A stretch of 64,000 bases of DNA, from NCBI GenBank assembly GCA_020284085.1, contig JACEVL010000157.1:877001-941000 (forward strand), read 5' to 3'. The notes under the pieces are model-generated. The model was not told the DNA's origin, made no database searches, and saw nothing but the letters and a program-made list of their open reading frames with translations. This document shows, one piece after another, positions 488 to 64,000 of the stretch (position 1 is its first letter; each line of letters begins with the position of its first letter). A program made the position numbers and the translations under genes. This stretch comes from Aporrectodea caliginosa. Lineage: Eukaryota > Annelida > Clitellata > Crassiclitellata > Lumbricidae.

Positions 488-1089
488 TTGCTGCTGCTGC
501 TGGTGGTTCTGTTTTTCCTGCTTCTGGCTCCTCTACTTCTGGTTCTTACCATTCTCTTGCAGATTAAGTTTCTTCATGAGCGGTTTCTTAACATATTGCT
601 TCTTATCCTCTAGAATTATTTTGTAAGGCGTACTCGTTAGGACGCACGAGCTTTCCGCTTTGCGTTTGCTTCTCGTTCTGTGTGCGGATAAGGACGGATA
701 TCCAGCTCTGACACATTGGCTATTGGGGAAGGTGCTTTTGTCGTATTTGTGCAGCTCAGCATCGTTACCAGACTTGTAGCGAGGTACGGCTGGTTCGTTT
801 CATCATCATCGACAGGTTCTGCAATGAAGTTATATAATTTATTTTAAGATATTTAGTTTTAGTTTAAATATACGTGTATCCAGTAATAAGCATTGTTAAC
901 CTAGCAGAAAAATTGGAGGCAATGTGGTAAGTATAAGTTACATTAGTTAATTGTATAATTAATATAAATTAATATTTTTTATGTATCTCAGAGATCAGTG
1001 AATTACTTATAGATAGGCCTACCGGGAAATCCAGCTGAATGTGCGACTTCTGCAACCATAGTTGGCTGATTTGGCTCAGCCAAATGTTT

Positions 1090-1345
1090 GTTGGAATTCT
1101 CGGATGAACAGGTGAGTTCTACTTCGAATAGTGGCTGGTACTGTTCTGGAATACTGACAGGCTCGGATGAACAGGCAAGTTCCATATCGATCGCGGGGCT
1201 GGTTTGGCTCAGCTCCAAGTTTGTTGGAATTTTCAGATGAACAGATGAGTTCTACATCGATTAGGCCTAGTGGTTGGTATTGTTCTGGAATACTGACAGG
1301 CTCGGATGAGCAGGCAAGTTCCATAACGATTGCCGGCTGGTTTAA
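1090..1345. repeat. Two-copy tandem duplication, about 122 bp per unit
   Basis: Two adjacent units share TTGTTGGAAT...GATGAACAG...GAGTTCTAC...TGTTCTGGAATACTGACAGG...CAGGCAAGTTCCATA and differ by scattered substitutions. The second unit has a 6-bp gain (GGCCTA) after a TA near 1262. The open reading frames across it on both strands come from the duplication and match no family I recognise. Confidence 0.75.
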
Positions 1346-2803
1346 TTTACGTGTATCGGCCTGTTGTGACTGGTTGTGCAATAGAAAGCCTGTTGGTAAT
1401 TTTCGCAGATTTCAGTTATGCCATGATGGAGCACGTGGTAATGCTGCTATAAGATGCACGGAGATTGGCGGTCGATAACCTGGAGATCTCTTGCTGCGAC
1501 GCGAGTTCGTATTAGCCTTTTGCTTTCGGCTATGATTTCCCATCAGTATTTCAGCATTTGCAACCTCAGGTCGAATTCTGCGTCTAGGGCGTAGGCCCAA
1601 TCCTAATGTTGCTGTGGTCACATATGAAGTTCTGGCTTGAAGAGTAGCCTTTGCTGAACTTAGCCTGATAGGCTAAGACAAGTTTATTTGTTTTAGTGAA
1701 TGTGGTTGACTCATGCATGGAGCTTGCTAGAGCTTCTGGATGTGACATTGTGGTATCTCGTGACGCGGAGGCTTCTGTATGTTCTATAACGTCAATAATT
1801 ATGTAAGCTCCAATCTATACTGTTACTGCTTTCATGGACTGAATAGGCCTACAGTTTCAAATATTCTAAATTGTTTAAGTTTAAGGAACAATTAAATAAA
1901 TGTAAGAATATTATAATGGTAAATGTCAAAAGTGCAACTCTTGCCCCATGTTCAGAGGCAAAAGTGGCATGTCCTGGGGCAAAAGTGGCAGATAGTGTGC
2001 CACTTATGCCCCATAGCTATGCCTCGCCTTAGCGATTCTTTTCGTTATGAAAGGATTAAGATGCGACGTACGATAATGTTTCATTAAAAAGAAGCATATT
2101 TAAATCTTATAAATAGCACAATATAAACTGTGCCTTACCTTGTATTAGAAAGTAGTGGCTGATCAAAGATCGCCTTTAAAAAACTCAAATTGGGCGAAAA
2201 TCTTAAAAATTGAGAAAAAAATAGTTGCGATAGCTCTTCTGCAGAATATAGTTTTCCATCGTGTATCGCATCAAACCCGCTTATTAAAACGCAAGGTAAA
2301 GATTCTACACTGGTGGCCGTTTTCTAGCCAGTATGGGGTGCCACTCTTACCCACCATGCCTCTCCTGCCCCGGTCTCCCCTACAGGGTGCGTAATGTTAG
2401 GTAAGTTTATAGACCCGGTGTTTGTGGTATAGAGTAGGCCCTATAGACTCTACAGAAGATCATCGGTGATATTTCAGATAGATTAAAATATTTGTTTCTT
2501 TCATAATTAAATTTTATTTATATTATTAAACTATTATTTTGCTCATTAATACTCGTATATTGCGAGTGTTCAATAAGTTTGTAATATTAGCCTATTACCC
2601 GGGTAATCGTGGTATAGTAAAGAAATGGGTGATAATTATTTTCATTATTTAGGCCTATTTGTATTAATAAATGACTATTTTGAATAGTAAGCCATATAAT
2701 ACTCGTAAGCTTGTATTGTGGGTGTAAATGAAAAAGCTTCAAGAAATTTACTGTGAGCTGAAATCCTGTGAAGCGGATAAACCACATAAGACATCTGTGG
2801 ATT

Positions 2804-3195
2804 ATTGCAATATTGTTTATTGCAATATTGTCTATTGCAATATTGTTTATTGCAATATTGTCTATTGCAATATTGTTTATTGCAATATTGTCTATTGCAA
2901 TATTGTTTATTGCAATATTGTCTATTGCAATATTGTTTATTGCAATATTGTCTATTGCAATATTGTTTATTGCAATATTGTCTATTGCAATATTGTTTAT
3001 TGCAATATTGTCTATTGCAATATTGTTTATTGCAATATTGTCTATTGCAATATTGTTTATTGCAATATTGTCTATTGCAATATTGTTTATTGCAATATTG
3101 TCTATTGCAATATTGTTTATTGCAATATTGTCTATTGCAATATTGTTTATTGCAATATTGTGTTTTGCAATATTGATATTGCAATATTGTTATAT
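2804..3195. repeat. Palindromic 15/30-bp tandem array (TATTGCAATATTGTY)n
   Basis: About 24 head-to-tail 15-bp units of TATTGCAATATTGT followed by T or C. The last base alternates T, C, T, C with no break across nearly the whole array, so the unit that was amplified is a 30-bp dimer. Each unit holds two overlapping palindromes, ATTGCAAT and CAATATTG. The array decays at its right end (TGTTTTGCAATATTGATATTG). Because 15 is a multiple of 3 and the motif has few stops, long meaningless reading frames cross it on both strands. Confidence 0.95.
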
Positions 3196-4080
3196 TGACT
3201 GACAATGGCTGGTTGATCAACTGTTCCATCCGTCAGTCAATCAGCAGGTGGTCTATTGGGTAGGGCGCTGATTGTGCGTTAGAGCCTTGTGAGAAGATTA
3301 AAAGTAATGATAGGCTACTGAGCAAGATGTTTGTCTCGTGCCTCACGTTTAGTTTGTACAGCATTGCTTTTTGTTGTATGTTTTATTGTATTGAAATACG
3401 TTGTAGTGTATAGCAATGTATTGTATTGCAATGTAGTGTATTGTATTGTACCGCATTAGAGTGCAATACGGAATAGAGTATTGAGATAGGCTATTCTATA
3501 GAACAATAGGCTATATAGGCCTATATGGTGTTAAATTTCAGTAAGAAGAATGTAACGGTAAATGCCAACGTAAATCTTCGAAATTTCTCGACGCCACACA
3601 AAACCCGCTTCAGAAAGACCAGCTTAATCACCGGCGCTATATCATATCAAGTCTGCAATAGCCGCCAATTAAGAATCCGGGGAGGTCTGTAAGTAAAAAG
3701 GATTGGTTACTTGAGCTTGTAGCCTACTCGGCCAAGCGTGTAGATGTTGAAGTGGCGAAACAACATACATAGTGTTAGATTGGTCCGCTTAGTTCAATCG
3801 CAGGGTTGCTTGTTCCATTGTTGTTCTGTTGTAGGCCTAGCCTATCGTATTTTTGCACTCCAGGCCAACTGAACTGACCTGTGTCGTGATGTATCAGCTG
3901 TCTTGAGTCGTGACAAAAGTAATGTAATGAATTTGATGTACACAAGTGCATTCTTTCGTCACAACTTGCCTTGACTATTGCCTATTCTGGCATCTGGACA
4001 GCTGGCCTGTCTTCAATGTATTCTCCGCTCTACAGCGCGACTTACAGGCCGACTACCCAAATTCAGTCATGTGTCAACTA
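3196..4080. other. No gene recognised
   Basis: Unique-looking AT-rich DNA with a TTGTATTG-rich low-complexity patch at about 3360-3480. Several TAGGCTA, TAGCCTA and TAGGCCTA palindromes are present (for example 3311, 3516 and 3832). No domain or splice-consistent exon is seen. Confidence 0.5.
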
Positions 4081-62230: not shown

Positions 62231-62474
62231 CTCCAAGCATTAGCATTTGCGCTGACAGCAGACAGTATGTAAAGCATCCTAGAAGTAGCTTGCTGCCGAC
62301 GACACTAGAGAAATTTTTTTAATTACAATTACGGTGAGTCTTGACATAGAACGCGTGAGCGGTGATAAACGTGCAAGCCCTAATTATAGAACGTGCGAGT
62401 GGTAATAAAGAATATGAGAGTGGTGATTATGAAGAACCTGTGAGCAGTAGGTAAAGACTGAGTCTGGGTAGGAT

Positions 62475-62572
62475 TTTTCAGAAATGTGCTGTTGGCAGGG
62501 ATTTAAACCCCGACCTCCTGATTAACAGTCCAGCATGATAGCCACTACACTATCGAGCATCCCAAGTAGCAA
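62475..62572 (-). repeat. SINE family A head
   Basis: The minus strand reads GATGCTCGATAGTGTAGTGGCTATCATGCTGGACTGTTAATCAGGAGGTCGGGGTTTAAATCCCTGCC, with A-box and B-box-like sequences and a tRNA-like fold. The body is not preserved. Too diverged for a functional tRNA. Confidence 0.65.
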
Positions 62573-62599
62573 GTAGTCAATGGACCTCATATTACAGTA

Positions 62600-64000
62600 C
62601 CTTGCAGTATGTTACCAATTTTAATACAAATTATTAAAATTACTGTTGAGTTCTTCAGTGTACTAGAAATCCGCCATTAACAGTGCTCTGCAATCTACAT
62701 TTCTTTTTAAAGTTAGACTCTATGGAAAGCTGGAGTGTATAGATTTTTGTCTTCAAAATGTATCCTCCCCTGCCAAGTGGAGGCGAGCTTGAAACGTGCA
62801 CTGCAGAGGGCAATTGCTAATGAAATCCAACACTTGTGAAACGTGACCTTCACCGCGTGACCTTGATGCTGAAGGTCACGAGGGCATTTAGGACTTGAGC
62901 CAATGGGGTGATCCCGTGATGTGATGTGGGGCACGTTCAACTATTATCCCTTCTCCCGGTAGAGGACACGGTGACCCTTCTAGACGGATATTGCAGCGCA
63001 TTGCACCCATTGGCCATCCAATGGGTGGGTCGGTTGATCGCATGCGCATGTGGTCCGAATTGTTGCAATGCGTCTTGGCACCGCGCCAACATTTTATGCA
63101 TGTTATATATATATATATATATATATATATATATATATATATATATATATATACATATATATATATATATTGTTTTTCGTGCAGTGCCAGCCAATTTGTG
63201 TTTACACCTGCGTGACTGCGTGGCGTCTTTATTGCTATGGCGTCATGTTTACTGCGGGTTCTGCTGTTGCTGCTGTGATATTGATTTCCTTGTTGCGTCA
63301 TGGGAGCCGTGGTCGGATGGTCGGCCCACTGATGCCTCGGACGTCAGCTCTGCCATCCGATGGTCGCTGTGAAGAGACCTGGAAATGCTTGGAAGGATTC
63401 CGAGGAAATGCCTTCTCGTTATTCCTGCTTCCCTTGTGCTTCTTAAACATGCTTATCTGTCGCTTATCTATCGCTGTGTGTCTGTGTCTGTGACTCTTCT
63501 ATCTCTTCTCTCTATCGTCGTCTCAGTCTGCCCGTCACTGTGGGTCTTTGTCTCACTGTCTCTGGTTCTCGTTCTGTGTGTATATCTCGCTCTGTCTGCA
63601 TTCGGCTTCCTCCCCTCACAACTGACCAACGCCCACTGTTGTTATGGCAACCGCAGCCTCTGGGCGGCGACCCTGTCTAGCCATCTGACGGTAGATACAC
63701 GAGGAATGGTCTGATGTCCATCCACGGAGGATCACTTCTTACTAGGCCTAAGTCTAAGAGCTTTCGTTTGTTTGCTGGCAAATCTCCCGCGGGCAAGAGG
63801 AGCAGAAGGGGCGCAAGTTCACTTCTCCCATCTTCACATCGTTGGTCTGTTATTTGTGGCGGGAGACGGATGAATGTATATCCGGCGGAAGTGATGATGT
63901 GGTCTCGTTTAATGTCTGGGCTCGGGGCGACACCTGTCGGAGATTGTCAAATCAGGGCACTACTCTGGTATTACTATGAGTAGGCCCTACCAATTCGGGT
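62600..64000. other. Unassigned, more GC-rich end of the window
   Basis: No gene is recognised. A nuclear-receptor half-site cluster lies at 62843-62879, and a (TA)n run of about 60 bp at 63103-63170. From 63180 on the DNA is richer in GC, with CTGTCTCT-like tracts (63460-63600). A stop-free plus frame at 63714-63980 is Arg/Ser-rich and matches no family I know. Confidence 0.35.
63103..63170. repeat. (TA)n microsatellite
   Basis: About 33 TA units with one interruption (TACATATA). Confidence 0.97.

Follow-up and report, generated by a model that had tools for sequence, protein, structure and literature searches.

GGC-type micro-insertions at TA dinucleotides in an earthworm genome and their possible origin as excision footprints

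The window analysed here is a stretch of 64,000 nucleotides (nt) from Aporrectodea caliginosa (contig JACEVL010000157.1, our C156:877001-941000). Its content is eukaryotic, comprising a long interspersed nuclear element (LINE), an array of C2H2 zinc fingers and a PR domain, and scattered through it are short G/C words that stand between two TA dinucleotides, among them the palindrome TAGGCCTA (TA-GGCC-TA). A first-pass annotation made from the letters alone had placed 24 copies of TAGGCCTA; all of these were exact, and there were no further copies in the window. Likewise, its five examples of a 3-nt class (3311, 5263, 17397, 27711 and 36603) and its four copies of TAGGGCCTA were at the positions given. 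The sites found by word scan (exact word scan for TAGGCCTA) are listed below, with the strand where one was assigned.

1014..1021, TAGGCCTA micro-insertion site
1262..1269, TAGGCCTA; the tandem copy beside it (1064-1205) reads TA at the same place
1844..1851, TAGGCCTA
2650..2657, TAGGCCTA
3516..3523, TAGGCCTA
3832..3839, TAGGCCTA; the right TA carries a nested TAGCCTA (3838)
5096..5103, TAGGCCTA
5407..5414, TAGGCCTA
5489..5496, TAGGCCTA
5697..5704, TAGGCCTA
6724..6731, TAGGCCTA
7272..7279, TAGGCCTA
9346..9353, TAGGCCTA
17372..17379, TAGGCCTA
17612..17619, TAGGCCTA
19170..19177, TAGGCCTA
19188..19195, TAGGCCTA
21194..21201, TAGGCCTA
39465..39472, TAGGCCTA
42205..42212, TAGGCCTA within the LINE; the 20 sister copies fetched read TA, and the insert gives a TAG stop in the LINE frame
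54278..54285, TAGGCCTA
60608..60615, TAGGCCTA
61256..61263, TAGGCCTA
63743..63750, TAGGCCTA
7282..7290, + strand, TAGGGCCTA, 5-nt class
13111..13119, + strand, TAGGGCCTA, 5-nt class
54565..54573, + strand, TAGGGCCTA, 5-nt class
57449..57457, + strand, TAGGGCCTA, 5-nt class
2435..2443, + strand, TAGGCCCTA, 5-nt class
38968..38976, + strand, TAGGCCCTA, 5-nt class
63981..63989, + strand, TAGGCCCTA, 5-nt class
3311..3317, TAGGCTA/TAGCCTA, 3-nt class
5263..5269, TAGGCTA/TAGCCTA, 3-nt class
17397..17403, TAGGCTA/TAGCCTA, 3-nt class
27711..27717, TAGGCTA/TAGCCTA, 3-nt class
36603..36609, TAGGCTA/TAGCCTA, 3-nt class
All 3-nt class starts: 1669, 2588, 3311, 3487, 3507, 3720, 3838, 5263, 5587, 5707, 17248,
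17397, 19427, 21326, 27711, 28290, 28328, 36603, 36844, 37453, 46725, 50689,
50964, 51010, 53629, 56172, 56372, 56538, 56840, 56862, 57736, 57996, 59526

Over-representation in the window and across the genome

In 100 dinucleotide shuffles of the window TAGGCCTA occurred 0.62 times on average and at most 3 times, which bears out the excess that had been judged from a hand estimate of about 0.8 copies by chance. The 33 sites of the 3-nt class comprised 21 TA-GCC-TA (2.4 expected) and 12 TA-GGC-TA (2.8 expected), and TA-GGGCC-TA and TA-GGCCC-TA were found four and three times, respectively, with about 0.2 expected for each. Copies of TAGGCCTA were unevenly spread, with 13 of the 24 in the first 9.4 kb and a variance/mean ratio of 2.9 when the window is divided into 16 bins.

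The excess had been described as locus-wide; it is present in the window, but it is not local to it. Across the 1,097,852,775 bases searched (4544 contigs), TAGGCCTA was found 292,633 times against 7,583 for a reversed-word control, a 39-fold difference, and TAGGCTA was found 336,624 times on the two strands (168,115 + 168,509) against 83,297 for its control (41,883 + 41,414).

Finer counts were made in a 285-kb sample that joins the window to seven 3-kb loci and to twenty stretches of 10 kb each, taken from contigs C1-C20. The seven loci were chosen for holding TAGGCCTA and partly overlap (L001/L002, L004/L005 and L007/L008, so that about 2.7 kb is counted double), which slightly inflates the density in the sample and leaves the genome-wide counts unaffected. 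Locus L003, which overlaps L002, was excluded from the sample counts and included in the local repeat-pair alignments, and the transposase loci L061-L064 described below were excluded from the word-series, longer-duplication, clumping, dinucleotide-pair and Markov counts. The count of 8-mers against a Markov background that the first-pass annotation had suggested put TAGGCCTA at the top of 240 palindromic 8-mers, with 84 sites against 2.8 expected under a second-order model. Both TACATGTA (27 sites against 8) and TAATCGTA (28 against 8) were likewise over-represented in the sample.

It can be seen from this sample that the enrichment is specific both for TA and for a narrow series of words. 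When GGCC was counted between two copies of each dinucleotide, TA gave 168 occurrences against 5.6 expected, and the other 15 pairs gave 2-14 with no clear enrichment. Counted with their complements, the cores G2C1 (100 against 23.4), G2C2 (84 against 2.8) and G2C3 (12 against 1.1) were in excess; G1C1 (47 against 48.7), G1C3/G3C1 (2 against 4.5) and G3C3 (0 against 0.1) were not. A 6-nt class was also enriched genome-wide, with 8,853 places for TAGGSSCCTA, whereas the reversed pattern has 2,598; among the first 50 TAGGSSCCTA places GGGGCC/GGCCCC occurred 43 times, GGCGCC four times and GGGCCC three times, and some of the GGGGCC/GGCCCC places cluster on C3 and are perhaps one repeat. The rule first proposed, TA followed by 3-5 nt of G/C and a second TA, thus holds for GGC/GCC, GGCC and GGGCC/GGCCC and is otherwise too wide, given the unenriched cores above and the finding that GGCC alone was in clear excess among 4-nt G/C words between TAs in the window.

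The sequences flanking 167 occurrences on both strands were nearly free beyond one base on each side, where G before the TA and C after it were preferred, and TAGGCCTA is therefore not part of a larger repeat. Sites were clumped, with 5 pairs spaced 6-12 bp apart against 1.2 expected and 59 pairs spaced 160-320 bp apart against 25. Seven copies of TAGGCTA lie inside 118 bases at G000:C1:56612-56729 with a spacing of 11-29 bp, perhaps as a tandem array with a captured footprint.

Exact gain at plain TA in repeat copies

The LINE in the window served as a ruler for the insertion at 42205.

41161..44001, + strand, LINE with endonuclease and reverse transcriptase (Exo_endo_phos and RVT_1 matches)

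Sister copies were taken from the 40 best of 1391 first-look candidates, which were scored and gave at least 48 matches. At the position of TAGGCCTA, all 20 of the sister copies fetched among the listed matches covering it read plain TA, and since the insert interrupts the LINE frame with a TAG stop it must postdate the making of that copy. Thirteen LINE copies, lying 0.7-2.7% from their consensus, held seven insertions of at least 3 bp once alignment-end artefacts and a 4-nt segment common to six copies were left out. Four of the seven were GGC-type words at an exact TA, namely GGCC in the window, GGCC in L050 (identified by eye within a 5' block that the script gave whole) and both GCC and GGGCC in L052; the remaining three were two in L050 and one in L058, the last a tandem copy. 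Summed as length times divergence, the roughly 30 kb compared hold about 500 substitutions, so that there is about one gain per 125 substitutions, a rough figure from four events.

Ten copies of TAGGCCTA could be aligned in local repeat pairs, of which six represented the same place twice or a word-sharing duplicate of 97% identity (L002/L003, L024). In the four informative pairs, TA stood opposite window position 1262 and L017:7900, L007:1501 was ambiguous and L019:9109 did not face a clean TA. One clean local pair (L010 against L017) showed TAGGCTA opposite TA.

A subfamily of short interspersed nuclear elements (SINEs) provided a further comparison. A search for the SINE 3'-end junction found 97 places (control 6), and the letters were examined for 51 of them. 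TAGGCTA stood at the 3' end in 17 of the 28 distinct places read, and the minus-strand relative in the window has plain TA:

28345..28377, - strand, SINE 3' end with plain TA (GCGCTATATGAAAACTAAT), a relative of the TAGGCTA subfamily

The subfamily ends in GCGCTAGGCTATATGAAAACTAATTAATAA and was apparently amplified after the gain; most simply, the word would have been inserted into a source gene whose copies then spread. At one further SINE place TAGGCCCTA was nested inside TAGGCTA. The earlier claim that the ancestral state is plain TA is thus upheld by the LINE, the SINE subfamily and two of the four local pairs, but not by L007 or L019:9109. We conclude that the event it had proposed, in which GGC(C)+TA is added exactly at TA time after time, is strongly supported by the LINE, SINE and dinucleotide-pair comparisons, and we have very little doubt that the micro-insertions are real. 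Apart from the two unclear local pairs, the empty site in these comparisons is exactly TA and the filled site carries a duplicated TA, as in a Tc1/mariner footprint.

The insertions also appear to be young. In the 285-kb sample TAGGCCTA had 90 one-mismatch neighbours against 76 expected, alongside its 84 perfect sites, and nearly the whole of this small excess was due to TAGACCTA/TAGGTCTA (22 against 6.4), the sole neighbour that was clearly enriched. By simple arithmetic, if gain and decay were in balance there would be about as many neighbours as perfect sites, and so the sites are young, their onset or speed-up is recent, or they are protected. Youth is the probable explanation, and the low divergence of the LINE copies agrees with it.

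Four other features of the window were noted. A C2H2 zinc-finger array at 22746-23756 (- strand) has 84-bp fingers in 7.8 copies with 91% matches and eight zf-C2H2 stretches, and about 4 kb from it on the same strand is a PR-domain piece at 27739-28134 (PRDM2_PR, E 2e-6), an arrangement that we take to resemble PRDM9-type genes. Near-perfect tandem arrays are found at 2803-3190 (30-bp unit TATTGCAATATTGTTTATTGCAATATTGTC, 13 copies) and at 52861-53198 (22-bp unit CAAGACTGAGACTAAGACATCC, 15.5 copies).

Origin of the insertions

From the exact insertion at TA, the word series, the specificity for TA, the genome-wide scale and the gains in LINE copies of low divergence, we infer a transposon as the cause, together with its end sequence and a pairing route. 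In our judgement it is moderately likely that a Tc1/mariner-like transposon with GG(C) ends, targeting TA, left the words behind as footprints of its excision. A cut-and-paste element of this kind would enter at TA and duplicate it, and on excision staggered cuts just inside its ends would leave the outermost 2-3 nt of the element behind on both flanks. Two published accounts describe comparable cuts, with Sleeping Beauty and mariner cutting 3 nt inside the element to give 3-nt 3' overhangs (PMC7827188), and with Tc1/mariner overhangs of 2-3 nt and a Sleeping Beauty footprint of C(A/T)GTA (PMC3878927). If the ends were 5'-GGC...GCC-3', both 3' overhangs would be GGC; pairing over 3 nt with one G:G mismatch would then give TAGGCTA or TAGCCTA, perfect GC:GC pairing over 2 nt would give TAGGCCTA, and pairing over 1 nt, or slippage during gap filling, would give TAGGGCCTA/TAGGCCCTA and, more seldom, TAGGGGCCTA/TAGGCCCCTA. 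The pairing of GGC with its like would follow the rule of Sleeping Beauty applied to a different sequence. The identical series would result from templated filling of a 2-nt GG overhang, so that the third base of the end is not fixed by it.

Several observations fit such a route. The core variants that short complementary overhangs would give were found as G2C1, G2C2 and G2C3. A G2Cn series without G1C1 or G3C3 points to joint pairing of both sides rather than independent tailing, and because independent extension of the two sides would arithmetically make GGGCCC commoner, it appears that two bases come from one side and between one and four from the other, which is what pairing of short overhangs before filling would produce. 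GGC also ranked second, behind TAT, of the 64 possible 3-nt overhangs in the 285 kb; most of the other top-ranked overhangs start with T or overlap GGC words, and AT repeats are our explanation for the AT-rich ones.

A transposon with GG...CC ends, as already suggested in the first-pass annotation, remains the explanation we prefer, and much of the word series follows from it, but no such element was found, and this is the first of several points that weigh against it. Neither a scan for TA-flanked inverted repeats nor an inspection of repeat-alignment boundaries and interrupted repeats revealed a repeat family with TA|GG...CC|TA ends in the 285 kb, and a search for the element among insertions inside LINE copies gave none with GG ends. 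Seven ends of TA elements were read, and they start with CAG or CGAGGG, none with GG; four are bounded by at least two copies (CAGTACAAACGG, CGAGGGTTGATC, CAGGGTGTCC and CAGGGTGGTCC) and three were judged by eye in single copies (CAGTTGTGGCC, CAGTGCTGGCC and CAGTAGTGGCC). The junctions at one SINE site held footprints and the amplified SINE subfamily; at a few of them (C3, C171 and C224) TAGG leads into other sequence, with none common to them. One candidate drawn from repeated TAGG-initial words, TAGGGACCC, proved to be the interior of a tRNA-type SINE.

The genome has many TA-inserting transposons, and transposases of the Tc1/mariner superfamily are present, none of them linked to GGCC words. 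A DDE_3 profile search gave 2223 first-look candidates (best 150 scored), mariner Transposase_1 gave 65 matches among 91 candidates, and DDE_1 gave 349 candidates (best 150 scored) with many frames; the pogo/DDE_1 copies that were fetched stop short of the element ends. A Tc1-like element with a 355-amino-acid frame in at least 12 equal-scoring copies ends in TACAGTACAAACGG, and four of its copies (L061-L064, on C18, C23, C134 and C200) share at least 99.7% identity across 3 kb, which makes recent activity probable. A mariner with 20 equal-scoring copies ends in ...GATCAACCCTCGTA, and further families have ends that start with CAGGG and CAGT. The element search covered 285 kb of 1.1 Gb together with short stretches; an element of a few thousand copies or fewer could have gone unseen in that coverage, and in principle the scars could be the work of a few hundred active copies. 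A search for a second haplotype of window positions 3400-7400 gave none among the best 40 of 10,881 candidates scored; besides the window itself it returned a single match of 48 bp and a 414-bp repeat of high copy number. The 414-bp repeat (about 4081-4494), which has TA flanks and ends AGGGGGGTCC...GACCCCT, looks like a miniature inverted-repeat transposable element (MITE).

SINE sites at which the inserted word was not preset speak both for and against excision footprints, and further points against them come from the word series itself. A query for the SINE 3' end (GRGGCGCTA N{3,9} TATAAAT) found 202 places (control 0), of which 100 were sorted by hand. The 22 inserts kept contain G or C and recreate TA; left out were rows with only A and T, rows in which TATAAAT recurs later in the SINE tail, and three inserts that did not restore TA. 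In favour of footprints, ten of the 22 were GGC words (GCC 3, GGC 2, GGCC 3, one of these with an extra TA, and GGCCC 2), and the other 12 were CGG (2), GC, G, GA, GATC, ACT, CATG, CA, C, TTGGAA and a GCC between two GCGCTA, where the CGG pair is 46 kb apart and perhaps one event, the core C is ambiguous and TTGGAA is long. The single CATG, which we take to be a Tc1 footprint, occurs here beside GGC words. At the SINE head (GTGGTGTA N{3,16} GGGGTATG; 87 places, all examined, control 1), only five inserts were GGC words at plain TA (GCC 2, GGCCC 2, GGCC 1). A further 13 duplicate more than TA (TGTA-GGCC-TGTA 7, TGTA-GGCCC-TGTA 2, TGTA-GCC-TGTA 2 and GTA-GGCC-GTA 2), which a fixed TA duplication does not predict, although a SINE subfamily could explain them. 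Three resemble Sleeping Beauty footprints, such as CAG-ended elements leave (CTG 2, CAG 1), CTG being alternatively a C between two TGTA, and the other 66 are different words and incomplete copies of the head, some of them recurring (GGGGACTA, GGACTGTA). At a third SINE site (85 places, control 0), 60 of the 85 inserts were 4, 5 or 6 nt by length alone. As for the series, GGCGCC, which is the no-overlap product of GGC ends, was unenriched (4 of 50), G2C4 needs an additional slippage step, and GGC with three extra duplicated bases was found at four sites in the 285 kb against about one expected.

A process that involves no element, the chief rival, would account for some of these observations, and we hold it possible though unlikely. 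Here a nuclease would cut TA with a 2-nt stagger, the ends would be filled and so duplicated, and an end-joining polymerase would add GG to the 3' ends before they are joined (TAGG+CCTA); the nuclease could be SPO11-like or derived from a transposase, and its existence is conjecture. The lack of a GG-ended element among the seven ends and in the 285-kb scans speaks for this, and variable stagger fits the longer duplications around the same cores (TGTA, GTA and once GCGCTA) and the four TAGGCTA sites with a 5-bp duplication; the clumping of sites at 6-12 bp and 160-320 bp is a further point in its favour. However, independent G-tailing predicts G1C1 and G3C3, neither of which is in excess, almost all words belong to G2Cn with n = 1-4, and there was no general excess of longer duplications around GGCC in the 285 kb. 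If there were no transposon, a host enzyme would be cutting TA in the germ line, with repair writing GGCC or GGC between the TAs, in a one-step, self-limiting process that had made at least half a million words and was unlike any named system; to this fuller proposal we give somewhat less credence again.

That TAGGCCTA is part of an ordinary dispersed repeat or MITE end is very improbable. The TAGGCTA frozen in one SINE subfamily would suit such an origin, but the 167 occurrences share no conserved sequence beyond the 8-mer and individual LINE copies acquire the word at differing positions, which refutes it for most sites. We give equally little weight to a selected or protein-bound palindrome, of which AGGCCT is an example for zinc-finger proteins; the few one-mismatch neighbours would agree with selection, but youth also accounts for them, the 3-, 5- and 6-nt relatives are enriched as well as the one fixed word, and in copies of the LINE and SINE the words appear by insertion. 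Point mutation, which the first-pass annotation had said would overturn an insertion model, is refuted, along with composition bias and assembly artefact, by exact gains of 5-7 bp at TA opposite many empty LINE copies, by the 39-fold excess over the reversed word and by the 84 sites found against 2.8 under the Markov model.

Significance and comparison with known systems

Excision scars are usually tallied singly, and if these words are indeed excision footprints they would form a genome-wide record, readable as words, of excision frequency and of host end joining. The four gains against about 500 substitutions in 13 LINE copies would be a high rate if it held genome-wide. The insertions are a noticeable mutational force, having given rise to palindromes, to a stop codon within a LINE reading frame and to a SINE subfamily that carries one such insertion. 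Should no element exist, a new insertion mechanism would be operating. Among the matches listed in the open-licence literature searched, there was no report of such an over-representation of TAGGCCTA.

Two papers (PMC7827188, PMC3878927) allow a comparison with the footprints of Sleeping Beauty and mariner, which share the TA target and a duplicated TA round a 3-nt core. Both systems have two complementary versions of the core, C(A/T)G for Sleeping Beauty and GGC/GCC here, and the 2-3 nt 3' overhangs are those described for Sleeping Beauty and mariner in the same sources. Unlike those footprints, the core here is GGC/GGCC and not CAG/CTG, the 4-nt class about equals the 3-nt class, and the matching element was not found. 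To our knowledge, the number of footprints, about half a million, is also far above any known case. Stowaway and MITE elements of grasses insert at TA and reportedly leave footprints when they excise; in that case the element is known, whereas in this genome there are many scars and no element was found. SPO11 and topoisomerases are linked to short duplications, and a 2-nt stagger would duplicate TA, but we know of no such case with a fixed GGCC filler. The footprint of Tc1 of Caenorhabditis elegans, which we take to be TACATGTA left by a 2-nt overhang, likewise has a 4-nt palindromic core between duplicated TAs, and the difference is that in this genome the core is GGCC and stands in 292,633 copies.

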